From positions 1 through 20,884 of the IMG/VR virus record IMGVR_UViG_3300037493_002493: DNA of 20,884 nt; one strand, written 5' to 3'. The DNA is from a virus. Below the pieces are notes generated by a model, which did no database searches, was not told where the DNA came from, and saw only the letters and a program-made list of their open reading frames with translations. Positions 1,932 to 20,884 of this stretch are shown in pieces; position 1 is the first letter of the stretch, and each line of letters starts with the position of its first letter. Made by a program: the position numbers and the translations under genes.

Positions 1932-1932
1932 A

Positions 1933-5397: not shown

Positions 5398-5407
5398 ATT
5401 ATTATAT

Positions 5408-5967: not shown

Positions 5968-6017
5968 GGCTTAAAAAAAATAATTTACATTTTTATGAAA
6001 GTTTTTTACTAAAATGT

Positions 6018-6060: not shown

Positions 6061-6096
6061 CGAAAGGGAATTATTCACACACAAAAAATTAAGATT

Positions 6097-6312: not shown

Positions 6313-6320
6313 CCAGCCTA

Positions 6321-6347
6321 CGGGGCGCAGTATCCGACCAACTGCAA
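6321..6347 (+). repeat. Intergenic hairpin element, copy 1
   Basis: CGGGGC, then a 5-bp stem GCAGT (6327-6331) / ACTGC (6341-6345) closing a 9-nt loop ATCCGACCA. It sits between the stop at 6312 and the start at 6378. These 27 bases recur exactly at 6582-6608, and a third diverged copy at 18767 keeps the stem by compensatory change. No T-tract follows this copy, so it is not a plain terminator. Confidence 0.75.
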
Positions 6348-6377
6348 TATTATTAAACAATTTATATATCAAACACA

Positions 6378-6575
6378 ATGACAACCGCAGAAAAAATCGT
6401 ATCAAAAATGAATGTATTAGCATTCAACAGCAATGAACTTAATGAAAGTGGGGATTTTTACCCTACAGAACAAGATTACATTGAAACCATTGGATATGCC
6501 TTAATACATGGTTGGGTTGCAAGCCCCACCGTATTTACATCTGAAGAGATGGAATTTATTAAAGCACTAATATAA
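6378..6575 (+). CDS. Small unknown protein (65 aa)
   Basis: The product is acidic and soluble, rich in Glu, Asn and Thr, with two helical segments: near the N terminus (TAEKIVSKMNVLAF) and at the C terminus (FTSEEMEFIKALI). No recognised domain. The gene is bracketed by two identical hairpin elements (6321 and 6582), suggesting that the gene plus one hairpin behaves as a cassette. It is probably transcribed from P1 with its neighbours, since I see no separate promoter in the short gap before it. Coding status is supported by clean spacing within the series of small genes and by ordinary codon use. The function is unknown. Confidence 0.65.
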   Translation: MTTAEKIVSKMNVLAFNSNELNESGDFYPTEQDYIETIGYALIHGWVASPTVFTSEEMEFIKALI

Positions 6576-6581
6576 TCCTAT

Positions 6582-6608
6582 CGGGGCGCAGTATCCGACC
6601 AACTGCAA
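6582..6608 (+). repeat. Intergenic hairpin element, copy 2
   Basis: Identical over 27 bases to copy 1: stem GCAGT (6588-6592) / ACTGC (6602-6606), loop ATCCGACCA. It lies just after the stop at 6575 and before the TTTTTAAAAACCTTATT leader of the 6642 gene. The copies lie in different gaps between different genes, so the repeat is selected or mobile independently of coding sequence. Confidence 0.75.
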
Positions 6609-6620
6609 ATAATTTATCAC

Positions 6621-6637
6621 TTTTTAAAAACCTTATT
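6621..6637 (+). promoter_or_regulatory. Conserved start-codon leader, copy 1
   Basis: TTTTTAAAAACCTTATT ends four bases before ATG 6642. Close matches stand directly before five other starts (6857, 7333, 8081, 18355, 18819). There is no Shine-Dalgarno sequence, so this may be a host-type translation leader or a transcript 5' element. Confidence 0.55.
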
Positions 6638-6641
6638 TATT

Positions 6642-6836
6642 ATGAATACTTATTCAATGCCAATTTTCGAAACCAAGACAACTGACAAAGTTGTTAGATG
6701 GATTCATTCATCACAGTTAACAGAATATTTTTCCGAAGCCTATGCAAAAAAGATTGTTAAGGCGCAAGAACAAGGCGCTTTTTGGGGTTTATACCTGACA
6801 AAGACTGGAAGATTAAGAGCAGCTATTTTACCATAA
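6642..6836 (+). CDS. Small unknown protein (64 aa)
   Basis: A basic, soluble protein of 64 residues (VVRWIHSSQLTEYFSEAYAKKIVKAQEQGAFWGLYLTKTGRLRAAILP). The middle looks helical and the end like a beta hairpin. No recognised motif. It follows the second hairpin element and carries the conserved TTTTAAAACCTTATT-type leader. The gap to the likely start of the next gene (6857) is 20 bases and holds another copy of the leader, so the genes are probably read from one transcript and initiated separately. The function is unknown; a small regulatory or host-modifying role is a guess from position. Confidence 0.65.
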   Translation: MNTYSMPIFETKTTDKVVRWIHSSQLTEYFSEAYAKKIVKAQEQGAFWGLYLTKTGRLRAAILP

Positions 6837-6839
6837 TCA

Positions 6840-6853
6840 TTTTAAACCTTATT
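6840..6853 (+). promoter_or_regulatory. Conserved start-codon leader, copy 2
   Basis: TTTTAAACCTTATT ends three bases before ATG 6857. It supports ATG 6857 over the longer reading frame that opens at 6782 inside the previous gene. Confidence 0.5.
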
Positions 6854-6856
6854 AAC

Positions 6857-7300
6857 ATGTTTGCATTCGTAGAGCTGACAGACACGACACAAAAGCCTTA
6901 TCGCAGCGTTTTAACCTTTGTTAAGGTTGTAGAGTTGACGCACGAAAAAAGTCTGAACAAACGGGCCGTTATTGAGTACAAGTCCAAAGGCGAAAAGCTT
7001 CAACATTACCTAACTAGAGACAGACTGATTGCTCCAAATATTGTACATAGCGAAATTTTATATTACGCTTATCACTCGGGCTTTGAATATCGAGTTGATG
7101 TAAGAGCAGATTTTTTTAAGCATCCAGAGGAGCACTATGTAAGCATGGCTACAAAGTATATTATCACAGAGCTAAAAGTCAACCGTCACAAAATGGAGGA
7201 CGTTTCAGAAGCTGCAGAATTTATGAAAGCCGACAAGTATGAACTCGAAAGACAAATATTAGCGAGGTTGGTAGATTATGCTGACGAGCTACCTTTTTAA
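6857..7300 (+). CDS. Unknown soluble protein (147 aa)
   Basis: I place the start at ATG 6857 (MFAFVELTD) rather than the in-frame ATG at 6782. The latter would overlap the 6642 gene by 55 bases and lacks the leader motif that precedes 6857. The first half reads as beta strands (FAFVELTDTTQKPYRSVLTF), the second as charged helices (KMEDVSEAAEFMKADKYELERQILARLVDYADELPF). No signal peptide, membrane segment or known domain is visible. It sits between the small-gene series and the lysis genes, and its stop is followed 32 bases later by the first lysis gene, again with the shared leader. The function is unknown. Confidence 0.75.
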   Translation: MFAFVELTDTTQKPYRSVLTFVKVVELTHEKSLNKRAVIEYKSKGEKLQHYLTRDRLIAPNIVHSEILYYAYHSGFEYRVDVRADFFKHPEEHYVSMATKYIITELKVNRHKMEDVSEAAEFMKADKYELERQILARLVDYADELPF

Positions 7301-7314
7301 TCAATTATTATCAA

Positions 7315-7330
7315 TTTTAAAAACCTTATT
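7315..7330 (+). promoter_or_regulatory. Conserved start-codon leader, copy 3
   Basis: TTTTAAAAACCTTATT, two bases before ATG 7333, the first gene of the lysis cluster. Confidence 0.55.
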
Positions 7331-7332
7331 TT

Positions 7333-7647
7333 ATGAAAACCTTATTTTTGATTTTAGCGCTTTCAGTTAGCGCAATCGCTCAGCAAGCAGACACTTTTTA
7401 CTGCATCCAGATTATGAGCACAAAGACTCCGCAGTACATTAGAGCTGAGCATCTGGCGATGTGCACCTTCGACTCTGCAAAAGTTGAGCAGCAGGGCGAA
7501 TATTACAGGATCCTATTTGTTTACGAAACGGAGGAGGAGGCCGACTTTATGATCGCTACCTGGCAGAGGGCCCACAAAGATGCTTTCATCTGCACGCGGA
7601 CCAGACAAGAGGTTGACGAGCTTAAAAGCTTTGTTCCGAAATCATGA
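7333..7647 (+). CDS. Secreted SPOR-like protein in the lysis cluster
   Basis: This 104-residue protein begins with a clear signal peptide (MKTLFLILALSVSAIA, probable cleavage before QQAD), so the mature part of about 87 residues should be periplasmic. The mature part has the rhythm of a SPOR peptidoglycan-binding domain: FYCIQIMS near its start, YYRILFVYETEEEADFMI in the middle, then a helix. Members of that fold bind denuded glycan strands. This assignment is by pattern only. It is followed by a 57-aa membrane-anchored gene (ATGA overlap), a holin candidate and a GH73 enzyme, so a part in envelope disruption is likely. It could be the periplasmic partner of an atypical spanin-like pair, which a phage of a Gram-negative host needs for outer membrane disruption. 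Confidence 0.75.
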   Translation: MKTLFLILALSVSAIAQQADTFYCIQIMSTKTPQYIRAEHLAMCTFDSAKVEQQGEYYRILFVYETEEEADFMIATWQRAHKDAFICTRTRQEVDELKSFVPKS

Positions 7648-7817
7648 GGGACATATTAGCGGTAATAGTTTTGTCGATCTTGGCTTACCAACTATTACGT
7701 TGCGAGTTTAAGCAGGAGTACAAAGCACCAGAGCAGTCTTTTAATGGTGCCGATACGCTAAAAATATTTTTTGTGAATGATAGCATCACGGAAATAAAAC
7801 CTTTGAAAAAACTTTAG
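7644..7817 (+). CDS. 57-aa membrane-anchored protein, spanin-like candidate
   Basis: A short gene, easily missed. ATG 7644 overlaps the previous TGA as ATGA and the frame runs to TAG at 7815-7817. The product has one N-terminal hydrophobic segment (DILAVIVLSILAYQLL), then Arg-Cys and a polar 37-residue tail (from about residue 21). It is therefore probably a membrane protein with the tail in the periplasm. Cys20 is preceded by LLR, which does not fit a lipobox well, so I favour a membrane anchor over a lipoprotein. The overlap with a secreted protein and the holin start two bases downstream (7820) are typical of compact lysis cassettes. The small size, single anchor and position fit an inner-membrane spanin-like subunit, but there is no sequence signature to prove it. 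Confidence 0.65.
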   Translation: MRDILAVIVLSILAYQLLRCEFKQEYKAPEQSFNGADTLKIFFVNDSITEIKPLKKL

Positions 7818-7819
7818 CC

Positions 7820-8065
7820 ATGAAATACACAATCCTATTCCTTGCCGCAGTCATTATCGAAATTGCATCGACATTTTACATTAGTGCCGTATCTGATAGG
7901 CAGTTGGTGCCAATGGTTTTTTGGGCGTTTGTAGGGCCTTTCTTAGGGCTGCCTTTCCTTGCATACCAAATAGAGGCAAAGAACAACTGGCAGCGCGCAA
8001 AATTAGCTTTGTGCTATGGTTTAGGCTATGCAGTAGGTGCAGCTTTGGTAAACATCTTTTTATAA
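7820..8065 (+). CDS. Holin candidate, three membrane helices
   Basis: An 81-residue, strongly hydrophobic protein. Helices lie at about residues 3-22 (TILFLAAVIIEIASTF), 30-50 (VPMVFWAFVGPFLGLPFLAY) and 61-81 (LALCYGLGYAVGAALVNIFL), with a short charged loop (EAKNNWQRAK) between the last two. Size and three-helix layout match class I holins, which form lesions in the inner membrane at the end of infection. It stands immediately before the GH73 enzyme, the usual holin-endolysin order. A second holin-like protein is encoded at 17012, so one of the two may have another role. I cannot name a specific holin family, and a small membrane protein of other function is the alternative. Confidence 0.65.
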   Translation: MKYTILFLAAVIIEIASTFYISAVSDRQLVPMVFWAFVGPFLGLPFLAYQIEAKNNWQRAKLALCYGLGYAVGAALVNIFL

Positions 8066-8079
8066 TTTAATACCTTATT
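8066..8079 (+). promoter_or_regulatory. Conserved start-codon leader, copy 4
   Basis: TTTAATACCTTATT, one base before ATG 8081. A slightly diverged copy of the same leader, in the gap between the holin candidate and the glucosaminidase. Confidence 0.45.
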
Positions 8080-8080
8080 T

Positions 8081-8599
8081 ATGAAATCGACAATCTTAAT
8101 TTTAACAATTTTACTCTTTTGTTCAGCAACCTTTCCAGCCCTGAAGAGACAGCCAGCTCCGCAGCATATCGAGCGATACATCAAAAAGTATTTGAAGACT
8201 GCAAGGAAGGAAGCGGAACTTTACAATATACCTGCCAGCATCACATTGGCTCAGGGTATAATCGAAAGCAACTGCGGAAAGTCAAGTTTGGCCCGAAAGC
8301 ATAACAATCATTTTGGGGTAAAATGGCATCGTGGGCGAAAAGAAAAGTTTGCAGTTTACCGGGACGACACTCCGACGGATCGCTTCGTTGTTTACCGTTC
8401 CGCCTGGTGGTCATATCGAGATCACTCCAGACTCTTGACGTCAAAACATTATAGGCATTTAACAAAGCTCAAAAGGACTGATTATAAAAACTGGGCTCGG
8501 GGTTTAAAAAAGTGCGGATATGCAACAGCTCCAAAGTATGCAGAAATTTTAATCTCAGTTATTGAAAAATATGAGCTTTGGCGCTACGATCTGAAATAA
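8081..8599 (+). CDS. Endolysin: GH73 glucosaminidase with N-terminal export signal
   Basis: This 172-residue enzyme should cut the glycan strands of peptidoglycan (endo-beta-N-acetylglucosaminidase, FlgJ/GH73 type). The family core is recognisable: SITLAQGIIESNCGKSSLA with Glu62 as the expected catalytic acid, NNHFGVKW at about 76-82, FVVYRSAWWSYRDHSRLL at about 102-119, and YKNWARGLKKCGYATAPKYA towards the end. The first 20 residues (KSTILILTILLFCSATFP) are a signal peptide or signal anchor, so export may use the host Sec system rather than depend wholly on the holin. Cys14 follows LLF, a poor lipobox. The gene ends the lysis cluster and is followed by a strong terminator at 8648. The family call is confident; the details of export are inferred. 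Confidence 0.93.
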   Translation: MKSTILILTILLFCSATFPALKRQPAPQHIERYIKKYLKTARKEAELYNIPASITLAQGIIESNCGKSSLARKHNNHFGVKWHRGRKEKFAVYRDDTPTDRFVVYRSAWWSYRDHSRLLTSKHYRHLTKLKRTDYKNWARGLKKCGYATAPKYAEILISVIEKYELWRYDLK

Positions 8600-8612
8600 A
8601 GATTTATATTTG
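8577..8612 (+). promoter_or_regulatory. Possible promoter after the endolysin gene
   Basis: TATATTTG (8605-8612) fits TAnnTTTG. TTTG at 8577-8580 is 24 bases upstream, slightly longer than ideal. No gene starts before the terminator at 8648, so if active it would make only a short RNA of about 60 nt. Confidence 0.35.
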
Positions 8613-8647
8613 TGTTTGTGTTATAATTCCATTGGTTTTTAAGTTTG

Positions 8648-8680
8648 ACCGTTACTCTGCAGGGGGTAACGGTTTTTTTT
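8648..8680 (+). terminator. Rho-independent terminator after the lysis genes
   Basis: ACCGTTAC (8648-8655) pairs with GTAACGGT (8666-8673). The stem can extend inward by three pairs, two of them G-T wobbles, around a GCAG loop, and a run of eight T follows. It separates the lysis genes from the head operon. Confidence 0.85.
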
Positions 8681-8712
8681 ATTTATCGTTTTTTTTTGAG
8701 TAAATGGCTTTT

Positions 8713-8720
8713 TATCTTTG
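8713..8720 (+). promoter_or_regulatory. Promoter -7 element of the head operon
   Basis: TATCTTTG, the same -7 octamer as in the P1-P3 promoters, lies 16 bases before ATG 8737 and just after the terminator. The -33 part is not clear: TTTG at 8695-8698 is only 14 bases upstream. The site lies within the longer frame opening at 8704, which argues for ATG 8737 as the real start. Confidence 0.55.
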
Positions 8721-8736
8721 TGTAAAATCTATAAAG

Positions 8737-9711
8737 ATGTTTGAAATAAATATTTTCGGCACAATAGGCAGCAAAGATACGGAGACGAAAGACTCAGTAA
8801 AAAAAGCCCTTAACGATGCAGGCGGTCAAGATGTCCTAATCAATATATCAAGCTCTGGCGGGTCTATTATTGAGGGCATGGCAATTAGTGAAATGATTGC
8901 TTTATATGCTGGCAAAACGACGACAAGAGGCATCGGGATTGTTGCCAGTGCTGCGACAATTATCTTGATGGCAGGTAAGAGAAAGGAAATGACAAAGAAC
9001 TCCTTTTTCATGATGCACAATAGCTGGGGCGGAGTTGAAGGGAACGCTATGGAGCTTGAAAAGACTATCGAGCTTTTGAAAATGTTTGACGATCAAATGG
9101 CCCAAATTTATACTGCTCAGCTCGAAAGCAAAGGGAAGTTAATCGGAGGAGATAAAAAGAAAACCATTGAAGAAGTCAAACGAATGATGTCGGCGGAGAC
9201 TTGGTTTACTGCAGAGGAAGCGCTCGAAATGGGCTTTATTGATATGATTGTCGAAGAGAAAAAAGAAGAACAAACTATATACGAGGAGACCTACGCAATG
9301 ATAAGAGCGGAGGCAAGATTTAAAAATATTCCAAATAAAATCAAAAACAGTATGCAAGTAGAAAAAAAGACTTTTCTCCAGCAACTCGCTAAAATGTTTG
9401 GTTTTAAGGCAGAAATTACTGAGAACGAAGTCGACGAGGCTGCTGTTTCTGAGGACAAAGCCGTAGAGCCAGCCGTTGAAGTGAAAGAGGAAGTAAAGAG
9501 CGACGACAAAGCCGAAATGGAAGCCAAAATCGAAGCATTAGACAAACAGCTTGAGGAAAAACAATTGAAACTTGAAGCTTTAGAAGCCGAAATACAGGCC
9601 AAAATTAGCTACAAAAGCGATGTGAAGGCCGAAAAAACTGCTGAGATTGGTTTCACTCAAGACCAGATCGTACAGGCTTCAAAATTTATTAACTCACTAA
9701 TCAAAAACTAA
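8737..9711 (+). CDS. Head maturation protease (ClpP-like, S14) fused to scaffold
   Basis: A 324-residue protein. Residues 1-175 are a ClpP-type serine protease: LINISSSGGSIIEGMAI near 34-50, the nucleophile Ser71 in IVASAAT, His94 in FFMMHNSWGG, and the ETWFTAEEALEMGFID end motif. By alignment with ClpP, the third catalytic position is Glu154 instead of Asp, as I recall for other phage relatives. Residues about 206-324 are a charged coiled coil (Glu, Lys, Ala) typical of a capsid scaffold, so protease and scaffold are one polypeptide. An in-frame ATG at 9352 (Met206) would yield the scaffold alone, as lambda does with Nu3. ATG 8737 is chosen over ATG 8704, which lies upstream of the likely transcription start. 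The next gene, for an Ig-domain protein, starts six bases after the stop. Confidence 0.9.
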   Translation: MFEINIFGTIGSKDTETKDSVKKALNDAGGQDVLINISSSGGSIIEGMAISEMIALYAGKTTTRGIGIVASAATIILMAGKRKEMTKNSFFMMHNSWGGVEGNAMELEKTIELLKMFDDQMAQIYTAQLESKGKLIGGDKKKTIEEVKRMMSAETWFTAEEALEMGFIDMIVEEKKEEQTIYEETYAMIRAEARFKNIPNKIKNSMQVEKKTFLQQLAKMFGFKAEITENEVDEAAVSEDKAVEPAVEVKEEVKSDDKAEMEAKIEALDKQLEEKQLKLEALEAEIQAKISYKSDVKAEKTAEIGFTQDQIVQASKFINSLIKN

Positions 9712-9717
9712 CATAAA

Positions 9718-10512
9718 ATGTCATTCAATAAAGAAAACTTTTTTGTGGAGGGGAACTCAGAGGAGTTCTTTTTCAGTCGCACGAATCCGCTTGCAAACGC
9801 TGCAAATGCTGAGATACTAAAAATTGAAAACTGCGGAGGTTGCTGCGATCTTCAATTGGACTTTAGTGCTGAGACAACTTCGAGCGTTACCACTTTCACG
9901 TTTAACGCACCGACAAGCGGCTATGATACAAAGTATATCAAAGTTCAAATAACAGACGGAGCAGGTAATTTTGTTACTGGCGTTGGCACGGGTACCGTTT
10001 CAAGTATTGCAATAGATGTTTCAACACTAACTGGAAGCAATTGGTCTGTAATTATCGAAATTGCAACAGGTGATCTTGACATACTCGGCTGCGATTGTGT
10101 TAGAAGATTCTCATTCGGATATGATGGCGGAACTTTGGCAATTGATACGGAGGCTCTATGGGCTCCTGCATTAAGATTGTTAAAAGCTGACAATGCAACA
10201 ATAGTTGCCGACAATGGTAATTATATAATTGGTAGTTTTACCTCAGGTGGAACGACTGAGCCTTTCACGGTTTATGTTAGAAATGTAGGTAATCAGGTTT
10301 TGACGGTTTCTTCAGTATCTTTTTTAGCAGATGTTGCTTCCTTTGCTTTAGCTCCTTTTTCGGGTGTTATTTATCCGGGTCAGTCAATCGCTTATAGTGG
10401 AACAGTTGACACTTCAGGCGCAGCTGGTGCTTACGGTGGGGCAATAACAATAAACAGTAACGACCCGTTAAATCCTGCTTATTATATAAACATACTTTTT
10501 ACTTTAGTATAA
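9718..10512 (+). CDS. Probable virion protein with C-terminal Ig-like (HYDIN/ASPM-type) domain
   Basis: A 264-residue protein placed between the protease-scaffold and the major capsid gene, where head decoration proteins often lie. Residues 39-43 (CGGCC) and 125-127 (CDC) form a cysteine group around a beta-rich domain (about 45-135). Residues about 165-264 have the pattern of the ASPM/SPD-2/Hydin Ig-like fold: EPFTVYVRNVGNQVLTVSSVS, IYPGQSIAYSGTVD, then AITINSNDPLNP near the end. Ig-like domains on phage heads can bind carbohydrates, as in T4 Hoc and BACON-bearing gut phages. The last 330 bases are more AT-rich than the first part, hinting that the Ig domain was acquired separately. Decoration is inferred from position; tail attachment is an alternative. 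Confidence 0.65.
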   Translation: MSFNKENFFVEGNSEEFFFSRTNPLANAANAEILKIENCGGCCDLQLDFSAETTSSVTTFTFNAPTSGYDTKYIKVQITDGAGNFVTGVGTGTVSSIAIDVSTLTGSNWSVIIEIATGDLDILGCDCVRRFSFGYDGGTLAIDTEALWAPALRLLKADNATIVADNGNYIIGSFTSGGTTEPFTVYVRNVGNQVLTVSSVSFLADVASFALAPFSGVIYPGQSIAYSGTVDTSGAAGAYGGAITINSNDPLNPAYYINILFTLV

Positions 10513-10544
10513 TTCATCTTTTAATAAATAAAAAATAATATATA

Positions 10545-11534
10545 ATGGCAACATTTGAAGCAGGCCAATTCCGTATTGGATTAGTTGGCACTCAGGCGCA
10601 GGAAATGCTTTTCAAACCAGTATTTTTTGATGCAGAAATTGAAGACATTTTCGAGACTATGGTACTCGTAAATAATAAGCAGCAAATCGGTTATGTGGGC
10701 GTAATGGAGGATATTATGCAGCTGTCAGGCGGTTGCGGTTGGACTCCAAAGGGTGCACTCGGATTGTTCGAAAGATGTATCGAAGTTGACGAAATCAAAG
10801 TAAATCTTGAGCTTTGTTACGACGAATTTTTAGGTACTGTTTATAAGCAAAAACTTAAAGCAGGAACTCAGATCAGCAACTTAGAAGGTACAATCTTCAT
10901 GCAAATTTTGATGACTCGCATGGTACAGGCTTTGCGCAAACAGATGTTAAAGGTTGCTTTCTTTGGTAACAAGGCAAGCGTTGACGATGCAGTAAATATT
11001 ACAGACGGTATGTGGTCTGTTTATATTCCGCAATTAGTAGCTAATAACTTGGTTCCTTACATCAATTCTAATTCGGGTACTCCACTCGGCGCTGGCGATG
11101 GTATTGACTTGCTTAGTGCAGTATGGGAAAATAGCACAAACGTACTTTCAGCGGTACCGGAAGCTCAAAAAGTATTCTTAGTATCTGCTAACGTTTACAG
11201 ACAATATCTGCAAGACCTTCAGAACAATGGCGTAAGCTCTGCGGCTCATTTGACGCTTTTGACTGATGGCGCTCAGCGTTTAACGTTTAACGGTATCGAA
11301 GTAAAACCAATGTACGAATGGCAGCAATATGCGGACTCTTATTTGAATGTACAGGATGCAAACTTTGTACTTTACACAGAGCGTACTAACTTTGTTTTGG
11401 GTACTGACATCGCTAATCCGATCAATCAGGCAATGGCTTGGCACGATATGGAAGAGGAAAAATTAAAAGTTAGATCAAGATTTTATCTTGGTTTTAACTA
11501 CAAGCACTCTGATCTTATCACGGTTGCGTACTAA
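10545..11534 (+). CDS. Major capsid protein (HK97 fold)
   Basis: A 329-residue protein with the size and position of a major capsid protein, directly after protease-scaffold and decoration genes. Features consistent with an HK97-type coat are the N-terminal arm (to about residue 50), a long helical stretch near 120-150 (IFMQILMTRMVQALRKQMLKVAFFG, with Gly/Asn after it), a central A-domain-like region (AVPEAQKVFLVSANVYRQYLQDL), and a C-terminal LKVRSRFYLGFNYKHSDLI. There is no obvious cleavage signature, so processing by the ClpP-like protease is assumed from the neighbours. Cysteines lie at about residues 64, 78 and 92. The leader (10513-10544) is AT-rich with no Shine-Dalgarno sequence. As the most abundant virion protein it should be the easiest to confirm by mass spectrometry. 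Confidence 0.85.
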   Translation: MATFEAGQFRIGLVGTQAQEMLFKPVFFDAEIEDIFETMVLVNNKQQIGYVGVMEDIMQLSGGCGWTPKGALGLFERCIEVDEIKVNLELCYDEFLGTVYKQKLKAGTQISNLEGTIFMQILMTRMVQALRKQMLKVAFFGNKASVDDAVNITDGMWSVYIPQLVANNLVPYINSNSGTPLGAGDGIDLLSAVWENSTNVLSAVPEAQKVFLVSANVYRQYLQDLQNNGVSSAAHLTLLTDGAQRLTFNGIEVKPMYEWQQYADSYLNVQDANFVLYTERTNFVLGTDIANPINQAMAWHDMEEEKLKVRSRFYLGFNYKHSDLITVAY

Positions 11535-11561
11535 ATTTTTTAACCTAATAAAAATATAACT

Positions 11562-12095
11562 ATGAGCTGTTTAACAGTTGGTTTAACAATAGATTGCGCA
11601 AACGCCTGCGCTGGTGGTTTAGCAAAGTTCTGGGTAGCTTCGAAAGAGGATGTCTCAGCTTTGAATATCACGGCTGGCGAAATCGATACAATTACAATGG
11701 TAGGGGCTACAAAATTTTACCTATTTGAGCCCTATCAAGAGACGGGGAACTTTACAGAAACCGGCGAAAGAGCTAACTGCAATACGGTAATTACTCAGAC
11801 TTTAGTTGCTATCTTTCCGTGTCATGCTTTGGCAACGAGAGAGGCAATTAAGGAGCTGCAAGATTGTTGCTGCGGCTTTATCGTAATCCACGAAGAGAAT
11901 AACGGAACGCGCTGGATGTGGGGTGCTCCCAATGATTTAACAACTTTGGGGATTGCTTATCCTGCTCAGCTGACAAACTTCGAAACGGTTACCGGTACTG
12001 CAATCAATGACCAGAACCAGTCGACTATTACGCTAACATCACGCGGAACAGTACAGGCTATTCCAGTTGCTTCGACGGTAACTATTCCAGTCTAA
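11562..12095 (+). CDS. Probable tail tube (major tail) protein, cysteine-rich
   Basis: A 177-residue beta-rich protein downstream of the capsid gene. The pattern of strands, a charged helix around 92-100 (TREAIKELQ), FIVIHEENNGTRWMWGA in the middle and a polar Thr/Ser-rich C-terminal strand pair fits phage tail tube subunits, which stack as hexameric rings around the tape measure. I cannot confirm the family from sequence alone; a neck or head-tail joining protein is the main alternative. It has eight cysteines: C3, C12, C16, C73, C87 and a C102-C104 triplet. That is unusual for a cytoplasmically assembled virion protein and parallels the cysteine clusters in the 9718 and 13750 products. A terminator follows at 12123, so this gene closes the capsid transcript. 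Confidence 0.6.
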   Translation: MSCLTVGLTIDCANACAGGLAKFWVASKEDVSALNITAGEIDTITMVGATKFYLFEPYQETGNFTETGERANCNTVITQTLVAIFPCHALATREAIKELQDCCCGFIVIHEENNGTRWMWGAPNDLTTLGIAYPAQLTNFETVTGTAINDQNQSTITLTSRGTVQAIPVASTVTIPV

Positions 12096-12122
12096 CTTTG
12101 GATTTTGGGGAATTCATACGGA

Positions 12123-12153
12123 GGGGGAGGGTTTTTATCCTTCCCCTTTTTTT
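12123..12153 (+). terminator. Rho-independent terminator after the capsid operon
   Basis: GGGGGAGG (12123-12130) pairs with CCTTCCCC (12139-12146), eight pairs with one G-T, loop GTTTTTAT, followed by seven T. Since I see no strong promoter in the short gap before 12173, read-through may supply the portal genes at a lower level than the capsid. Confidence 0.8.
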
Positions 12154-12172
12154 AAATTAAAAATCTGTTTTT

Positions 12173-12370
12173 ATGTTTAAAGTAAAAGAAAAATTCATCG
12201 ATTGCACGGTTTATAATACAGAATTTACCGTACATTTGTCAAAGGCTACGCAAGATCAACTAGAGCACTTATATCATATAGGTTTCAAAGGTGTTGAGCT
12301 AGTAGGGAAAAAGCCTAAAAACAAGGCAATAGACAACTTTAAAGCAGAAACGACAGATATCAATGAGTAG
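12173..12370 (+). CDS. Small unknown head-region protein (65 aa)
   Basis: A 65-residue basic protein: an N-terminal beta segment (FKVKEKFIDCTVYNTEFTVHL), a helix (SKATQDQLEHLYHIGFKGVELV), then a charged tail. I do not recognise a family. The gene begins after the capsid-operon terminator and its last eight bases overlap the portal start (ATGAGTAG at 12363-12370), so its translation is probably coupled to that of the portal. Small proteins in this position often act in head completion or joining, but nothing in the sequence shows this. The leader is AT-rich and lacks a Shine-Dalgarno sequence, like the other genes here. Confidence 0.68.
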   Translation: MFKVKEKFIDCTVYNTEFTVHLSKATQDQLEHLYHIGFKGVELVGKKPKNKAIDNFKAETTDINE

Positions 12371-13775
12371 GAGAAAAACCGTTATACAGGCAGAAATTAA
12401 GCCAAAAACAGACGTTTACGCTTGGGGCTCACTAAATAACGGAGTGCACCCTTTCAAAGTAGATGATATTTTTCGGGAACCTTCAAGGGAAATTTTAAAT
12501 AATACGGTCTGGACGTACGTTCCGTTCAGTACTTACGATCTTTGTAGGCTTGACAGATTGCAGGCTATTTGCAACAATAGCCCGACAACGGCTGGCATTA
12601 TTCAGCAGAAAGTCAATTATTTTGGCGGTGACGGCTTTTATACGGTTCCTGCGGCTACAATGTCAATGCTCGCAAGTTTAAAGACAGCAAAAGTTGAGGC
12701 TCAGGAAATAACAGAGGACCAGATCCAAAGTCTTAACGACTGGCTCACGGTATTGACTCCAGAGGGTTTAAATGTCGAAGAGTTGACCTCTAAAATTTGC
12801 AAAGATTTTGCAAGCTTTGGCAATGCCTTTATTGAAGTGCAGAGGATTAAAGTAGGTCAGACAAAAAAGTATTATTTGCGCTGCTTACCGATTAACTGGT
12901 GCCGACCTCGAAAGGCTGCAAAAGACAGTATTTATCCGACGCATATTGGCGTTTCTGACGAGTTTGAAGAAGCGTGGGAGATAACTCCGCAAAATGTGAC
13001 GGACTTACCTATCTTTCCAGTATTTGAGAAAATCGGAGGGGTTGAAAAGTCAATCGTTCACTTGAAAAATTACGAGCCGACGCTTGTTTATTGGGGCATT
13101 CCTGACTGGGTAAGCGCTAAAATCTGGGCAGAGCTCGAATATAGGATCCCGAAATATAACCAAAGCAAATTTGAAAACGGTTTCACTCCTTCTGCAATTA
13201 TCAGTTTGTTTGGCTCAGCTAATCAAGAGGAAGCTCAGCAAGTTGTTAGGGCGATGAAGGAATGCTTTACCGGTACTGGGAACAACTCTAAAATGTTTAT
13301 TCAGGCATTAAGAGATCCGACTTACAAATCAGACGTGCAAGTTTTAAATAGCTCAGCAGAGGGCGAATTTTTGAACCTGCAAAATATGGCTCAGACTAAT
13401 ATTATTACAGCACATCGTTGGTCGGTATCGCTCACGGGCCTTCGCACGGCTGGCAGCTTAGGAACAAATCAACAGATCCGATCAGAGTTTGACATTGTTT
13501 ATAATACAGTCATACGTCCGATGCAAAGGCTGTACTTGACAAAGTTCCTCAACCCTATTATTCAAGACGCTGGCAAATGGCTCGGGTATGACTGGTCAAA
13601 TATTGCGGTCGATATAGCCAAGCCAATGCCAGTATCTTTTGCAGGCGACATACATATAAAGGACATTTTAACAATCGATGAGATGAGGGCGGAGTTAGGC
13701 TTTCAACAAATTGAAAATGAAGAAATAATTGATGAAAAACACGATATAAATGACGACACTAATCAAGCCGGGTGA
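12363..13775 (+). CDS. Portal protein
   Basis: A 470-residue portal protein, the dodecameric DNA channel at one vertex of the head. The most telling part is about residues 235-400: the TLVYWGIPDWVSAKIWAEL and EYRIPKYNQSKFENGFTPSA segments, a FTGTGNNSKMFI loop, then GEFLNLQNMAQTNIITAHRW and the LTGLRTAGSLGTNQQIRSEF stretch. All follow the pattern of PBSX/P2-type portal proteins, in which a long helix and the substrate-clip region precede a C-terminal basin. The acidic C-terminal tail (ENEEIIDEKHDINDD) overlaps the start of the next gene by 26 bases. It lies after the major capsid gene here, whereas in most tailed phages the portal precedes it. The matching terminase is not in the window. Confidence 0.9.
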   Translation: MSRRKTVIQAEIKPKTDVYAWGSLNNGVHPFKVDDIFREPSREILNNTVWTYVPFSTYDLCRLDRLQAICNNSPTTAGIIQQKVNYFGGDGFYTVPAATMSMLASLKTAKVEAQEITEDQIQSLNDWLTVLTPEGLNVEELTSKICKDFASFGNAFIEVQRIKVGQTKKYYLRCLPINWCRPRKAAKDSIYPTHIGVSDEFEEAWEITPQNVTDLPIFPVFEKIGGVEKSIVHLKNYEPTLVYWGIPDWVSAKIWAELEYRIPKYNQSKFENGFTPSAIISLFGSANQEEAQQVVRAMKECFTGTGNNSKMFIQALRDPTYKSDVQVLNSSAEGEFLNLQNMAQTNIITAHRWSVSLTGLRTAGSLGTNQQIRSEFDIVYNTVIRPMQRLYLTKFLNPIIQDAGKWLGYDWSNIAVDIAKPMPVSFAGDIHIKDILTIDEMRAELGFQQIENEEIIDEKHDINDDTNQAG

Positions 13776-16189: not shown

Positions 16190-16786
16190 ATGAAAGAGAT
16201 ACAAAAAAACCCTGAAAGTAACTACAAGGTTATTGGATTTAGCCACAAAAACAAATATTACATAAAATTTTATGATGTTATATGTATTTGTGGAAAGGAA
16301 AATAAATTAACTGCTCAAGATTTAAAGAAAAATATATCTTGCGGATGTTGTAAAAAAAATGAACATTTGTCAACTCATAAACTTTCAAAATCATCTGAAT
16401 ACAAATCTTGGCAGTCAATGAAAGAAAGGTGTTATAATTCTAATAGTCCAAGTTATAAACATTATGGAGAAAGGGGTATAACTGTTTCTGAAAGTTGGTT
16501 AAATAGTTTTGAACAATTTATAAATGATATAGGAAAAAAGCCAAATAAAAATGATACACTAGAGCGAATAGATGTAAATAAAGGTTATTCAAAAGAAAAT
16601 TGTATTTGGGCATCAAGAAAAAATCAAGCCAATAACAGAAGGACAAATTATTTTTTAACTTATAATGAAATAACAAAAACAAGAAGCGAGTGGGCAGATT
16701 TAATAGGTGTAAATGTTAGAACATTAACGAGTAGGTGTAGGGCTAATAAATCAATTGAACAAATTTTAAAAGAATATATTATATGA
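16190..16786 (+). CDS. HNH homing-type endonuclease with zinc-finger and helix-turn-helix ends
   Basis: A 198-residue free-standing endonuclease of the kind that spreads through phage genomes. N-terminal Cys32, Cys34, Cys51, Cys53 and Cys54 form a probable zinc knuckle. Residues about 71-151 carry the HNH-like core (YKSWQSMKERCYN, HYGERGITVSESW, LERIDVNKGYSKENCIWASR, NQANNRR). Residues about 158-195 (TYNEITKTRSEWADLIGV, VRTLTSRCRA) look like a NUMOD-type helix-turn-helix that reads the target. The gene is much more AT-rich than its flanks and has its own promoter. Its stop overlaps the next ATG as ATGA (16783-16786). Such genes nick or cut a site in related phages lacking them and are copied in by repair. 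No intron is evident. Confidence 0.88.
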   Translation: MKEIQKNPESNYKVIGFSHKNKYYIKFYDVICICGKENKLTAQDLKKNISCGCCKKNEHLSTHKLSKSSEYKSWQSMKERCYNSNSPSYKHYGERGITVSESWLNSFEQFINDIGKKPNKNDTLERIDVNKGYSKENCIWASRKNQANNRRTNYFLTYNEITKTRSEWADLIGVNVRTLTSRCRANKSIEQILKEYII

Positions 16787-17010
16787 GCGTTGTATATGTA
16801 GGTTTATTGACCGAACAGCAAAAAGACTTATTAGTTGGTCAAATGTATGACGAAGATAGTTTCTTCAATCCAATTTTGGATTTTTACGACCAGTACATAA
16901 TTTCAGTTGAAGAAATGGAATTTTGCGTAACTCCAGAGTTTCAATGGGTAAAAGATTTGCCGCTTATTGAATATAAACCAAAACCATCACCGCCATTCCC
17001 ACCAATTTAA
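16783..17010 (+). CDS. Small protein paralogous to the next gene's N terminus
   Basis: A 75-residue acidic protein. It aligns over its length with residues 1-68 of the 17012 product: VGLLTEQQKDLLVGQMYDED against VGILTAEEKEAIEGKQYAKG, then WVKDLPLIEYKPKP against WVKHLPIIDYKPKQ. It ends in a Pro-rich tail (PKPSPPFPPI). The pair is a tandem duplication of one small domain. The domain lies just downstream of receptor-recognition genes, so it may be a fibre tip, chaperone or capping module, but no function is established here. Its start overlaps the HNH stop, and one base separates its own stop from the next ATG. Before the HNH insertion it probably followed the 15325 gene directly. Confidence 0.7.
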   Translation: MSVVYVGLLTEQQKDLLVGQMYDEDSFFNPILDFYDQYIISVEEMEFCVTPEFQWVKDLPLIEYKPKPSPPFPPI

Positions 17011-17011
17011 A

Positions 17012-17533
17012 ATGTGCAAAACTAAGGTCGGAATTTTGACAGCGGAGGAGAAGGAAGCGATCGAGGGGAAGCAATACGCAAAGGGGCGATACTTTACGCC
17101 AGTGAAGGATGAGGACGGGAATTGGGTGCTAACTTTGGACCAAATAAACAACAACAAAAACATAGACTTTTGGTGGGTAAAACACCTGCCCATTATAGAT
17201 TATAAACCCAAACAAATGGACAAATCAGTAATTCCAGACATAATGGCTCTTTCTGGCCTGCTTTTATTTACCGGTGCAGAGCTTTCGATCGAGAGCGCAA
17301 TTTTTGAGATTATATCAAAGTTTGGCGTGGTTGCTGTCCTTTGGTTTTGGCTGCGAGAAATGAAGGAACAGATGAAGGAACAGAGCAAAGACTTTTACTC
17401 AGAAACAGAAAAGTTACGTACTGAGCACAAAAATACTATGCACGAGTTCCAGGAGATCCACAAAGAGCACAAAGAGTTATTGACAGATCAACTCAAAGCT
17501 AAGGACGAGATTATCAAGACTTTGAAAAAATAA
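17012..17533 (+). CDS. Paralogous domain fused to BhlA-like holin segment
   Basis: A 173-residue protein. Residues 1-68 duplicate the 16783 product. Residues about 75-115 contain a hydrophobic stretch (IMALSGLLLFTGAELSIESA) and a membrane helix (IFEIISKFGVVAVLWFWL). These run into a basic/acidic coiled coil (REMKEQMKEQSKDFYSETEKLRTEHKN and onward) to the end. The helix followed by a charged coil is the layout of BhlA/UviB-type holin-like proteins. Start 17012 (MCKTKVG) is one base after the previous stop. The frame also opens at 16967 inside the previous gene, which I reject. An in-frame ATG at 17216 (MDKSVIPD) begins exactly at the membrane part and could give a short holin-only form. A holin role is inferred; a fibre-anchoring membrane protein is possible. 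Confidence 0.7.
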   Translation: MCKTKVGILTAEEKEAIEGKQYAKGRYFTPVKDEDGNWVLTLDQINNNKNIDFWWVKHLPIIDYKPKQMDKSVIPDIMALSGLLLFTGAELSIESAIFEIISKFGVVAVLWFWLREMKEQMKEQSKDFYSETEKLRTEHKNTMHEFQEIHKEHKELLTDQLKAKDEIIKTLKK

Positions 17534-17606
17534 ATTAGGTAAGTAAAAGGACGCTTTTATCGTACCTTTGAGCTTTCGGCAAAAAATAATTTCATGTTTT
17601 GGAAAG

Positions 17607-17666
17607 AAATATTGTCAAAAGCTTTTTTATTCAAATAAGTAGTTCTATCTTTGTATCAACATATAA
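17607..17666 (+). promoter_or_regulatory. Phage promoter P2, 60-bp repeat copy A
   Basis: It contains TATCTTTG (17646-17653). The whole 60 bases match 18258-18317 at 59 positions; the last 27 (17640-17666) also match P1 exactly. No TTTG lies at the usual -33 distance (a T-run instead), yet the upstream conservation suggests that region matters. It drives the 17703 and 18038 genes. Confidence 0.85.
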
Positions 17667-17702
17667 GCAAAAGGAATTATTTAAACTATAAAAACTAAGA
17701 TC

Positions 17703-18011
17703 ATGACAACTATTATTAAATGCGGATACGCAGACAGAGCAAACAAAGCATTGGAACTAATTGCAAACGGCGGTTTTTTTAACGGAACTGTTTACTGCAA
17801 AAACGCAAACAAAAACAATACAGATGTTTCTATATATGTAGATGGCGCTTTTATTTCTTTGGGTCGCATTTGGCCTGCAGATGCAGCGGCGTTCAAAACA
17901 GAATTTCTTCAAGCTGTTGCAATGATTACAAACAGCACAATTAAAAGCGAAACAAAAGGCTTTGCTACATCTTGCGAAGAGTTCAGAATAACTGGACAAA
18001 TTAGCGAATAA
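17703..18011 (+). CDS. Unknown early protein (102 aa) behind P2
   Basis: A 102-residue protein, probably soluble and alpha/beta. An N-terminal helix (RANKALELIANGGFF) is followed by strands (GTVYCKN, DVSIYVDGAFISLGRIWP) and a second helix (AAAFKTEFLQAVAMITNS). No known motif. It is the first gene after promoter P2 and its codon use is moderately AT-rich. The layout of strong conserved promoter, short leader and one or two small genes is typical of early phage genes that modify the host or counter defences. That role is a position-based guess. The gap to the next start is 26 bases with no terminator, so 18038 is probably on the same transcript. Confidence 0.72.
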   Translation: MTTIIKCGYADRANKALELIANGGFFNGTVYCKNANKNNTDVSIYVDGAFISLGRIWPADAAAFKTEFLQAVAMITNSTIKSETKGFATSCEEFRITGQISE

Positions 18012-18037
18012 ATAAAACTTTAGAAAAACTAACTACT

Positions 18038-18238
18038 ATGAAAAACTTTAGAAAATTAGCAGAACAAGCAGGGCGAAAAGTTTACTCAGTTCGCAAATAC
18101 AAAAACAGACACGGCGAAGGGTATACAATCGAATACGCTGCAATTTTAAACGCTTATACAGTAAGCACACAACAAAAACGTAGCTTTCATAAAATGGAGC
18201 TGCAGGACATTCTAAACGAATGGAACGGCGAACAATAA
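18038..18238 (+). CDS. Small basic unknown protein (66 aa)
   Basis: A 66-residue, strongly basic protein (FRKLAEQAGRKVYSVRKYKN, then a strand pair GYTIEYAAILNAYTVS and a terminal helix FHKMELQDILNEWNGEQ). The charge and size would suit nucleic-acid binding or an inhibitor of a host enzyme, but no motif supports either. It follows 17703 closely and is followed 19 bases later by the second 60-bp promoter copy, so it ends the P2 transcript or reads into the P3 genes. The function is unknown. Confidence 0.65.
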   Translation: MKNFRKLAEQAGRKVYSVRKYKNRHGEGYTIEYAAILNAYTVSTQQKRSFHKMELQDILNEWNGEQ

Positions 18239-18257
18239 ATATTCATAAATAAAAAAT

Positions 18258-18317
18258 AAATATTGTCAAATGCTTTTTTATTCAAATAAGTAGTTCTATC
18301 TTTGTATCAACATATAA
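18258..18317 (+). promoter_or_regulatory. Phage promoter P3, 60-bp repeat copy B
   Basis: TATCTTTG at 18297-18304 within a 60-bp block nearly identical to P2, with one mismatch (T for A at 18271). It drives the 18355 gene and probably the ERF gene beyond. Confidence 0.85.
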
Positions 18318-18335
18318 AGAAATCGAATTTTATAC

Positions 18336-18351
18336 TTTTTAAAACCTTATT
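18336..18351 (+). promoter_or_regulatory. Conserved start-codon leader, copy 5
   Basis: TTTTTAAAACCTTATT, three bases before ATG 18355. Here it lies in the transcript leader of P3, showing that the motif belongs to the RNA 5' region rather than to the promoter itself. Confidence 0.55.
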
Positions 18352-18354
18352 ATT

Positions 18355-18747
18355 ATGAGCACGATCATTCAAAAACAGTACGAAACAGCAAAAGAAATTC
18401 TAAAATCAGCAGAATTTAATTTCAACTTTTACAAAACCTGCGGAAAAAGCCAAGAAGACTTTGATCATTTTTATAAAATTGCGACATCTTTATTAACTAT
18501 TGTCGGAGGTGTTTCTGTAGCTGGACAAGTTTATCAGTCGACAAGAGATTATAATATCGAAATTATTGATCATTGCCGACTACTGTTTGCAGCATACGAA
18601 GCGGAGTTGATGCAGGCTGGCTTAATTCCTTCGAAGTGGGAGCAAATACTTGCAGATGTCGAACCAACTGAGCCAGCGGAAACAATCAAATACAGCGAGG
18701 AGCAGGAAGCGCAAATGTGGTATGAGCACATTAAGCAAATTGACTAA
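18355..18747 (+). CDS. Unknown early protein (130 aa)
   Basis: A 130-residue, mostly helical acidic protein. The N-terminal half is polar helix (IIQKQYETAKEILKSAEF). A short hydrophobic stretch (ATSLLTIVGGVSVAG at about 43-57) is too short and polar to be a confident membrane helix. The C-terminal half is acidic (VEPTEPAETIKYSEEQEAQMWYEHIKQID). No recognised domain. It is the first gene after P3 and precedes the recombinase, separated from it by the third hairpin element. It could be an accessory protein of replication or recombination because of its neighbours, but this is not shown by the sequence. Confidence 0.72.
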   Translation: MSTIIQKQYETAKEILKSAEFNFNFYKTCGKSQEDFDHFYKIATSLLTIVGGVSVAGQVYQSTRDYNIEIIDHCRLLFAAYEAELMQAGLIPSKWEQILADVEPTEPAETIKYSEEQEAQMWYEHIKQID

Positions 18748-18766
18748 TATACACAATTTTAATAAC

Positions 18767-18798
18767 CGGGTGCGGTATCCGATAAGCCGCTTTTTTTT
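18767..18798 (+). repeat. Intergenic hairpin element, copy 3, with T-tract
   Basis: CGGGT, stem GCGGT (18772-18776) / GCCGC (18786-18790), loop ATCCGATAA, then eight T. Relative to copies 1 and 2, stem position 3 has changed A-T to G-C on both sides and position 5 is a T-G wobble, so pairing is kept. The T-tract makes this copy terminator-like, perhaps a partial attenuator before the ERF gene. Confidence 0.7.
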
Positions 18799-18800
18799 AT

Positions 18801-18815
18801 TTTTTAAAACCTTAT
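18801..18815 (+). promoter_or_regulatory. Conserved start-codon leader, copy 6
   Basis: TTTTTAAAACCTTATT-type motif three bases before ATG 18819, directly after the third hairpin, the same hairpin-then-leader order as before the 6642 gene. Confidence 0.55.
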
Positions 18816-18818
18816 TTT

Positions 18819-19382
18819 ATGAATTACAAACAAACTGACAACCTTTGCGAGCTCATCCTCGCTATGGTTAATTTTAACTTAGAATTTCAGACAACTAAGC
18901 TGATCAAGGATGGCAAAAACGAGCACCTAAGAAACAAATATTTGACGCTCGATAATATACTCAACACGGTTCGTCCTATCCTAACAAAGAACGGTTTAGT
19001 TATCATACAGGCCCTTGCAGGTGAATATCTGGTGACAACTATTTACCACGTCTCAGGCCAATTTATCCAAACTGATATGCCTTTCCACCCGATGAGCGGC
19101 AATAAGGGGACAAACGCGCTGCAAGAACTTGGAGGAGGTATCACGTATGCGAAGCGGTACGCAATTAGCGCAATGCTTGGAATTTCTGTTGATGCGGACG
19201 ACGATGCGCAAAGCTCTAAAATCAAGCCTGAGCAACTTAAAAGTAAAAAGAAAGTCAATACTATCGACGAGCTGCAAAAGTTACTAGGATGGCTTATAAA
19301 CAACCCAGAGAAGCAAGACACGTATCTTGACTTATTCGAGCTTACAAAGGAGCAGAAACAATTTATTGAAAACAATCTTTAA
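18819..19382 (+). CDS. ERF-family single-strand annealing recombinase
   Basis: A 187-residue protein of the ERF family, which anneals complementary single strands during phage recombination and replication. The signature is clear: YLTLDNILNTVRPILTKNGLVI at 41-62, the VTTIYHVSGQFIQTDMPF strand pair, and LQELGGGITYAKRYAISAMLGI at 101-122 followed by the acidic DADDDA. The core ends near residue 130. The remaining C-terminal part (KIKPEQLKSKKKVNTIDEL and a helical, acidic end) is the variable tail where partner proteins such as SSB usually bind. Length is normal for the family. The gene lies behind the hairpin and leader elements and two bases before the next gene, which may be its partner. It serves genome recombination in the early phase. 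Confidence 0.93.
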   Translation: MNYKQTDNLCELILAMVNFNLEFQTTKLIKDGKNEHLRNKYLTLDNILNTVRPILTKNGLVIIQALAGEYLVTTIYHVSGQFIQTDMPFHPMSGNKGTNALQELGGGITYAKRYAISAMLGISVDADDDAQSSKIKPEQLKSKKKVNTIDELQKLLGWLINNPEKQDTYLDLFELTKEQKQFIENNL

Positions 19383-19384
19383 TT

Positions 19385-19840
19385 ATGAAATTTACGATAT
19401 TAAAAAATACTGACGCGGTCCACGTGACGCTCGAAAAGATTACTAATCCAACGCTTCCCGAAAGGGGGGCGAAGGATTGTATAAGATCACTGACTGTTAT
19501 GCTTACGGATCAAGCCAGCGAGGCAATCGGGGCTTTCTCTGGAGGCATGAATACAGGGCGTCCGAAAAAAGGCGAAGAGAAGGGCTACAATAAAAAAGAG
19601 CTCTGCTCTATGCTGTTATCCGCTTATTGCAAGAACTGGCGCAGGTCGGGCCCCGAATGGCAGGCAAAGGAGCTGCAGGAGCTTAGGATAATTTGCATTC
19701 AACTATTACCGGAAACACGTCAAAAGCTGGCGAGTAATATAGGCCGACTAAAGCTAACAAAGCAATTGATGGCGGCGGCTATCCTTCAGAGAGTTGTTAT
19801 TACTCAGGACTTGAAAGAATTTTTTGATAAAATGCTTTGA
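19385..19840 (+). CDS. Unknown protein following the recombinase (151 aa)
   Basis: A 151-residue basic protein. The first half is alpha/beta (KFTILKNTDAVHVTLEKIT, then RSLTVMLTDQASEAIGAFSG). A Gly/Lys-rich stretch (GRPKKGEEKGYNKKEL) follows, and a helical C-terminal half (PETRQKLASNIGRLKLTKQL, ILQRVVITQDLKEFFDKML). The basic linker suggests nucleic-acid contact. No named family is evident. It starts two bases after the ERF stop, so the two are almost certainly cotranscribed, and a recombination or replication accessory role is likely from context alone. The 19836 promoter region overlaps its last codons. Confidence 0.72.
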   Translation: MKFTILKNTDAVHVTLEKITNPTLPERGAKDCIRSLTVMLTDQASEAIGAFSGGMNTGRPKKGEEKGYNKKELCSMLLSAYCKNWRRSGPEWQAKELQELRIICIQLLPETRQKLASNIGRLKLTKQLMAAAILQRVVITQDLKEFFDKML

Positions 19841-19864
19841 TTTAAAATATTATTTCTATATTTG
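19836..19864 (+). promoter_or_regulatory. Promoter of the replication genes
   Basis: TTTG (19836-19839), 17 bases, TATATTTG (19857-19864). Transcription would begin near 19871, giving a leader of about 130 bases before ATG 20002, unusually long for this phage. Confidence 0.7.
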
Positions 19865-19870
19865 CATATA

Positions 19871-19985
19871 GAATTTACGTTTGAGTAGCAGCGAACCTAA
19901 ATTCGATAGTATTCATAAATAAGGTTTAACCCGATTTAATCAAAGGCAACTGCTACTGCTGGAGATTATCTCGGGTTTTTTATTT
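19871..19985 (+). promoter_or_regulatory. Structured leader RNA with alternative or pseudoknotted stems
   Basis: Three helices are visible. Stem A: AGTAGCAG (19884-19891) with CTGCTACT (19950-19957). Stem B, nested inside A: AACCT (19894-19898) with AGGTT (19922-19926). Stem C: AACCCGA (19928-19934) with TCGGGTT (19971-19977), followed by a T-rich tract. Stems A and C interlock, so they must either form a pseudoknot or exclude each other. This is the logic of an attenuator or riboswitch. I cannot match it to a named class. Confidence 0.5.
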
Positions 19986-19987
19986 TT
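19928..19987 (+). terminator. Possible intrinsic terminator inside the leader
   Basis: Stem C (seven pairs, GC-rich centre) with a 36-base loop, followed by TTTTTTATTTTT. The long loop makes it weaker than the 8648 terminator. It lies 5' of a gene rather than 3', consistent with regulated read-through. Confidence 0.45.
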
Positions 19988-20001
19988 AAAAATTAACGGT
20001 T

Positions 20002-20244
20002 ATGGAATTTGTATATTGGAACGGAATTAAAATTTATGGCTACGATTATAAAAGAATGATAGCCTACCTTAAAACACTTGACAAAGCTTATTTAGATAAT
20101 TTAATTGAGTGTATTGCTGAAGAGGGAACTTGCTGCTTTACTTGGGATTCAGAAAGAAAAAAGCATATTTTTTCAGATGGAATTGATATTCCAGACGGAG
20201 ACTATTGGAGCGTACAAAATGACTTTAACGAATTTACAGATTAA
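20002..20244 (+). CDS. Small acidic protein (80 aa)
   Basis: An 80-residue, strongly acidic protein rich in aromatic residues (EFVYWNGIKIYGYDYKRMI, a helix AYLKTLDKAYLDNLIECIAEEG, then CCFTWDSERKKHIF and an Asp-rich end). The first gene after the structured leader, and it ends two bases before the initiator gene, so the two are almost certainly one operon. High acidity and small size would suit a DNA mimic, a regulator, or a partner of the initiator, but there is no motif to choose between these. The frame is supported by tight spacing on the 3' side. Confidence 0.7.
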   Translation: MEFVYWNGIKIYGYDYKRMIAYLKTLDKAYLDNLIECIAEEGTCCFTWDSERKKHIFSDGIDIPDGDYWSVQNDFNEFTD

Positions 20245-20246
20245 CT

Positions 20247-20884
20247 ATGAGCTTGTTAAAAATCTTGGGCTCATCCTCTTTCCTAATAGCAAATAAAGAA
20301 ATCGTAAAAGCTACTGATTTAGAATGCGCCGTTTTGCTTTCAGATTTGGCTGGAGCTTATGATTATTGGAAAGAAAAAAATCTTTTACAAGACGGCTATT
20401 TTTTTAGAACTCAAAGCGATATTGAGCAAAATACAACCCTATCCGCAAAAGTTCAGTTAAGGTGTTTAAAAGTGCTAATTTCAAAAGGTATTTTAAAAAC
20501 AAAATTGAAAGGAGCGCCTCCAGTTAAATACTTTTGCATAGATGAAAAAGCGATACTTGCTATAATTAGCCAAAAGGGAGAATTTGAAATAGCCGAAAGG
20601 GAGAAATTAAATTCTACAAATGGTATAATTCAAGATGTACAAAAGGGAGAATTTGAAATAGCCGAAAGGGAGAAATTAAATTCTACAAAAGGGAGAACAA
20701 ATAATAATAGAGTTAATAATAATAAAGTAATAATAATAGATAATAAAGAACAAAGCAATTTTTCTTTTTCTGAAAGTAGTCAAGATCTTACTTCCTTAAA
20801 TGATAAAAAACAACTCGAAAAAGTAAGTAGGGCTAATTTCGTAAATGACAAAGAAAGTGAGCCAGCAGAAAACGCAAAGTATTA
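20247..20884 (+). CDS. Replication initiator-like protein containing the candidate origin, 3' end missing
   Basis: At least 212 residues, running off the right edge. Residues about 20-100 look like a winged helix-turn-helix of phage replication proteins (DLAGAYDYWKEKN, DGYFFRTQSDIEQNTTLSAK, CLKVLISKGILKTKLKG, PPVKYFCIDEKAI): a DnaD-like or lambda O-like DNA-binding head. Residues about 108-150 contain a duplicated 23-residue segment (KGEFEIAEREKLNST twice), which reflects six tandem 23-bp DNA units rather than a protein need, since 23 is not a multiple of three. Asn/Ile-rich low-complexity residues follow (NNNRVNNNKVIIIDNK), coded by an AT-rich tract. The helicase-loading C terminus expected for this layout lies outside the window. 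ATG 20247 is two bases after the previous stop. Initiator function is inferred from domain style and the embedded repeats. Confidence 0.78.
   Translation, partial: MSLLKILGSSSFLIANKEIVKATDLECAVLLSDLAGAYDYWKEKNLLQDGYFFRTQSDIEQNTTLSAKVQLRCLKVLISKGILKTKLKGAPPVKYFCIDEKAILAIISQKGEFEIAEREKLNSTNGIIQDVQKGEFEIAEREKLNSTKGRTNNNRVNNNKVIIIDNKEQSNFSFSESSQDLTSLNDKKQLEKVSRANFVNDKESEPAENAKY
20571..20708 (+). repeat. Six tandem 23-bp iterons, candidate origin
   Basis: Units start at 20571, 20594, 20617, 20640, 20663 and 20686. Five carry AAAGGGAGAA at the same place (20573, 20596, 20642, 20665, 20688); the third is degenerate (AATGGTATAA at 20619). Units 1 and 4 are identical, as are 2 and 5, giving a 69-bp higher-order repeat. 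The phase is exactly 23 bp throughout, about two helical turns, so bound initiators would line one face. Confidence 0.85.
20698..20752 (+). other. AT-rich tract beside the iterons, candidate unwinding element
   Basis: Nearly all A and T, with repeated AATAAT and few G or C, directly after the last full iteron core. In lambda-type origins an AT-rich segment adjoining the iterons is where the strands first open. It also encodes a low-complexity linker in the initiator. Confidence 0.6.

Follow-up and report, generated by a model that had tools for sequence, protein, structure and literature searches.

An iteron origin lying inside the gene of its initiator is a known kind of origin. In the O gene of phage lambda, a winged-helix domain is followed by iterons, an AT tract and a C-terminal part, all within the gene. 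The annotated lambda iterons occupy nt 348-433 of the gene and follow a 6-5-6 dyad plan with a central AAA (TCCCTC-AAAAC-GAGGGA); P22-like and other O genes have their iterons at the same gene position and on the same 6-5-6 plan. Stx phages carry six iterons in an in-gene origin as in lambda (PMC7466680). In phage SPP1, gp38 binds direct repeats in its own gene 38 (oriL), beside an AT-rich unwinding element (PMC6316719). The RepA_N plasmid pSK41 has its origin inside rep, with four Rep boxes in which an A+T tract is important for binding, and the central region of Rep is a linker (PMC5703833).

The window, by which we mean the whole 20,884-nt stretch of viral DNA analysed here, ends within an O-like initiator gene that carries phased repeat units and an AT-rich tract (Table 1). 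We consider it highly probable that a theta-type phage replication origin is housed in the initiator gene and that the winged helix of the initiator binds the six units; the in-gene iteron origin is very probably functional. The layout is like that of lambda, with units 325-450 nt into the gene. As in the lambda O origin, phased palindromic iterons and an in-gene AT tract are both present, although the dyad is weaker (p=0.03 in a 6-5-6 dyad test of the window array alone). The iteron number is that of Stx phages. The spacing differs, being 20/24/23 in lambda and in P22-like phages and 21/21/21 in PHB10, whereas the window array keeps a strict 23. The resemblance to SPP1, which has a second origin, consists of in-gene repeats and the AT element. 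In fold, the N-terminal domain is best matched by RepA_N initiators such as pSK41 Rep, which likewise have in-gene sites, but theirs are plasmid genes and the window gene is a phage gene whose product gave no sequence match to PF06970 (RepA_N) in a Pfam scan at E<=1.

Table 1 Features of the initiator gene and its putative origin. Positions are those of the window. Iteron sequences are written as left half-site, centre, right half-site and spacer (lower case).
Feature	Start	End	Strand	Sequence or remark	Basis
O-like replication initiator gene	20247	20884	+	incomplete at window end, 212 codons seen	PHROG and Fpv5 matches
Winged-helix domain, N-terminal (predicted)	20247	20606	+	residues 1-120	AlphaFold2 pLDDT 88; Foldseek against PDB
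Recognition helix (predicted)			+	residues 67-79	
Codon of K68 in the recognition helix	20448	20450	+		
Iteron 1	20566	20588	+	TTAGCC-AAAAG-GGAGAA-tttgaa	23-bp period and 6-5-6 register
Iteron 2	20589	20611	+	ATAGCC-GAAAG-GGAGAA-attaaa	23-bp period and 6-5-6 register
Iteron 3, degenerate, in phase	20612	20634	+	TTCTAC-AAATG-GTATAA-ttcaag	
Iteron 4	20635	20657	+	ATGTAC-AAAAG-GGAGAA-tttgaa	23-bp period and 6-5-6 register
Iteron 5	20658	20680	+	ATAGCC-GAAAG-GGAGAA-attaaa	23-bp period and 6-5-6 register
Iteron 6	20681	20703	+	TTCTAC-AAAAG-GGAGAA-caaata	23-bp period and 6-5-6 register
AT-rich tract	20698	20752	.	87% AT; encodes Asn-rich linker; presumed DNA unwinding element	

The preliminary description of this DNA had reported five exact cores spaced 23, 46, 23 and 23 bases, with a degenerate sixth unit in the right phase. 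Both observations were reproduced. Exact AAAGGGAGAA cores begin at 20573, 20596, 20642, 20665 and 20688, the degenerate core CAAATGGTATAA lies in phase at 20617-20628, and TRF independently calls a period-23 array of 5.7 copies at 20567-20697. The six units together span 20566-20703, about 320 nt into the gene. Six units are thus present as had been claimed, but their independence was overstated. Positions 20571-20616 are identical to 20640-20685, units 4 and 5 being an exact 46-bp copy of units 1 and 2 produced by a recent in-frame 69-bp (23-codon) duplication, and because of this duplication there are about four independent units (1, 2, 3 and 6). The right half-site GGAGAA is constant except in unit 3; the left half-site is variable and weakly palindromic. 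The core pair AAAGGGAGAA-N13-AAAGGGAGAA was absent from all viral contigs searched, so the core is not shared.

In order to assess how far chance or the encoded protein could account for the repeats, we compared the window repeat score with shuffled, control and recoded sequences. None of 60 dinucleotide shuffles matched it (z=10.7), and it exceeds all 379 control segments of the same loci, with one of 658 equalling it in a wider control set. None of 1000 protein-preserving synonymous recodings attained the score (maximum 15.3, observed 20.6), and more than three cores did not arise in any of 20,000 recodings, compared with five observed. By the shuffles, the 379 control segments and the recodings, neither chance nor protein constraint explains the repeats. 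The independent units are mutually out of codon phase, and the AAAGGGAGAA core is translated in all three frames (QKGE, AERE, TKGR). The array is therefore under selection beyond the protein sequence, and the earlier argument that a 23-bp period breaks codon phase and points to selection on DNA stands.

The N terminus of the gene product had been read as a winged-helix initiator, and profile and structure searches agree. The product matches PHROG 9773 'replication initiation O-like' (E 1.7e-14) and PHROG 428 'replication initiation protein' (E 5.7e-13), and PHROG 9773 was also matched by 31/31 aligned relatives. Over residues 1-117 the protein is 44% identical to the replication initiation protein of the Flavobacterium psychrophilum phage Fpv5, its closest named relative. 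AlphaFold2 predicts a confident winged helix, for which the first six Foldseek ranks against the PDB are 4pql, 4pt7 and 5kbj (E about 7e-4 to 1e-3, TM about 0.6); these entries are N-terminal domains of RepA_N plasmid initiators. DnaD is also among the fold matches. The model thus suggests a winged helix of the DnaD/RepA_N type, and the TM of about 0.6 with high rmsd would indicate a common fold, descent not being proven by the fold match. The sole Pfam match at E<=1 was DnaD_N (0.019, below the cut-off), and PDB sequence searches returned nothing relevant. The gene is cut off at the window edge, with its C-terminal domain and the downstream gene lying outside.

The origin had also been called lambda-like, which holds for layout and design but not for family membership. 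Lambda O matches PF04492 (Phage_rep_O) at 5.7e-36, whereas the Pfam scan of the window protein gave no match to it at E<=1, and hhalign of the family profiles gave a probability of only 22%, over 37 helix columns. With no PF04492 match and a weak profile link, membership in the lambda O family was not shown; the window initiator nevertheless probably works like lambda O.

The earlier description had further proposed a comparison with related initiator genes. Relatives were not recovered by searching viral and genome contigs with single sequences and required alignments, and positions 16783-20884 have zero DNA-level relatives in the phage collection. The relatives found come from phages and contigs of Bacteroidota, Bacillota, Fusobacteriota and cyanobacteria; a PHROG 9773 search of Bacillota genomes gave 21/348 matches. 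For non-redundant genes, repeat lags of 14 to 40 bp were scored across the region that follows the winged helix, and the best one was taken. This was 23 bp in 40/75 discovery relatives, compared with 12/658 control segments drawn from the same loci (Fisher 2e-34; p-values are nominal, since the relative clusters are phylogenetically non-independent). By group, this was the case for 25/47 window-like and 15/28 Staphylococcus-phage-37-like genes. New queries gave 45 hold-out clusters, of which 28 had 23 bp as the best lag, as did 21/24 of the high-scoring ones; the remaining three peak at 15 bp, as is expected from the AAT-rich tract. Most relatives thus retain the 23-bp phase with other cores and are not plain coding sequence, which favours the earlier reading, and about half show no clear 23-bp array in the lag scan. 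In Fpv5 the 23-bp array is degenerate and the best lag is that of a 15-bp AAT tract. Especially clear in-gene arrays are seen in the initiator genes of L118, L092, L094, L129 and L134, which belong to uncultured phages or prophages. Those of L198, L202, L177 and L187 have a best lag of 22 bp, not 23, perhaps a second pitch class. In 9/10 sampled relatives the initiator gene is followed by one for a helicase or loader. Five of these encode DnaC-like loaders (one weak), and the others a P-like loader, a further helicase loader or a DnaB-like helicase. The initiator of Fpv5 is followed by a DnaC-like loader homologue.

The units follow a common plan of a 6-bp half-site, a 5-bp A-tract centre, a second 6-bp half-site and a 6-bp spacer. 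We tested the dyad per unit, since a periodic dyad has two centres, which makes array-averaged statistics ambiguous. Over 32 arrays the 6-5-6 dyad gave z 11.8 against column shuffles, with related odd gaps of the same centre scoring too. Among 39 arrays, A stands at unit positions 8, 9 and 10 in 36, 34 and 31, which is partly built in as the choice of register favoured a central A, and the spacer tends to AC-W-R-G-W. Half-sites are more alike where recognition helices are more alike, beyond what overall domain identity accounts for (partial Mantel r 0.17-0.20, p 0.001-0.01). Residue 68 is the chemically clearest single position. With K or R, a G is present at base 1 or 2 of the right half-site in 12/12, and with Y, H or F in 2/24. 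The rule, which covers K/R versus Y/H/F only, was fixed ahead of the hold-out analysis, where it gave 9/10 and 0/5; the lone exception, L343, appears to be mis-registered. Although partly confounded by common descent, which inflates all these counts, this covariation supports binding of the initiator to its own units.

An AT-rich tract directly after the repeats, as had been noted, was confirmed. The AT maximum of the gene begins 1 nt past the array, and the 50-mer at 20698, with 90% AT, ranks by AT content within the top 14 of the 20,834 in the window. Over 32 arrays, AT content in the 60 nt 3' of the array is 0.096 above the gene mean (p 7e-6), and the 60 nt upstream have no excess. The tract is presumed to be the DNA unwinding element. 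Positions 20700-20746 are AAT-rich with a 14-15-bp quasi-repeat encoding the Asn-rich linker, and a 15-bp lag is seen in several relatives. The GC-skew check that had been suggested gave no origin signal, the skew being monotone without a turning point in both the window and Fpv5.

The linker could have been extended by tandem duplication at the protein level, leaving the DNA repeat as a functionless by-product. The in-frame 69-bp duplication, which preserves the protein repeat QKGEFEIAEREKLNST, is what such a process would leave, but the 23-bp sub-period does not keep the reading frame, the cores are exact while spacers differ, and relatives with unrelated cores retain the 23-bp lag. Together with the failure of all recodings to attain the score, this makes a protein-level origin of the repeat very improbable. 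We assign a similarly slight probability to an origin whose units are bound by a host protein or a second phage protein, because half-sites track the encoded recognition helix, hold-out loci included; no result directly favours such a protein.

A somewhat larger, though still small, probability remains for units that serve as sites of the initiator or another regulator in expression or copy number (operator, handcuffing), with replication starting elsewhere. Iteron arrays have a known copy-control role in plasmids (PMC5703833), and an origin is not provable from a site array alone. However, the array lies deep inside the gene, away from a promoter, is coupled to the AT tract family-wide, and sits where lambda, SPP1 and pSK41 have their origin.

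For an origin within the initiator gene, we infer the following course of unit binding, tract melting, helicase loading and firing. The winged-helix domain would bind the six phased units, each a 17-bp imperfect dyad with an A-tract centre plus a spacer, and the bound initiators would assemble into an O-some-like complex, after which the AT-rich tract next to them would melt and the C-terminal part of the protein would recruit a helicase loader or helicase.

The rest of the window contains further observations. The product of 18819-19382, just 5' of the initiator, is a single-strand annealing protein resembling Erf (Pfam ERF 2.7e-20, PHROG 2324); the two form a recombination/replication block. 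On the + strand, within 1-13775, the order is tape measure (1933-5397), head protease (8704-9711) and portal (12363-13775). A tail gene thus stands ahead of the head genes, in contrast to the usual phage order of portal, protease, capsid and tail. The low-GC gene at 16190-16786 (1-kb bin 29% GC) is by eye a candidate HNH-type homing endonuclease and was probably inserted.

In the open-access literature searched, we found no account of a family-wide strict 23-bp pitch and no description of half-site/helix covariation across the family. We give an even chance to a broader proposal, in which an undescribed origin grammar is common to phages of several bacterial phyla. Its units would lie within the gene at a 23-bp pitch kept exactly (6-5-6-6); pitch, A-tract and spacer would be constant, and the half-sites alone would diverge together with recognition-helix residues, residue 68 first. 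If so, origins and their specificity would be readable from sequence alone. Most phage origins beyond the model phages are unmapped, and the strict pitch may provide a simple sequence-based finder; the covariation would make initiator-origin specificity directly testable. By design and fold, the locus may also link lambda-type phage origins to the origins of RepA_N plasmids.
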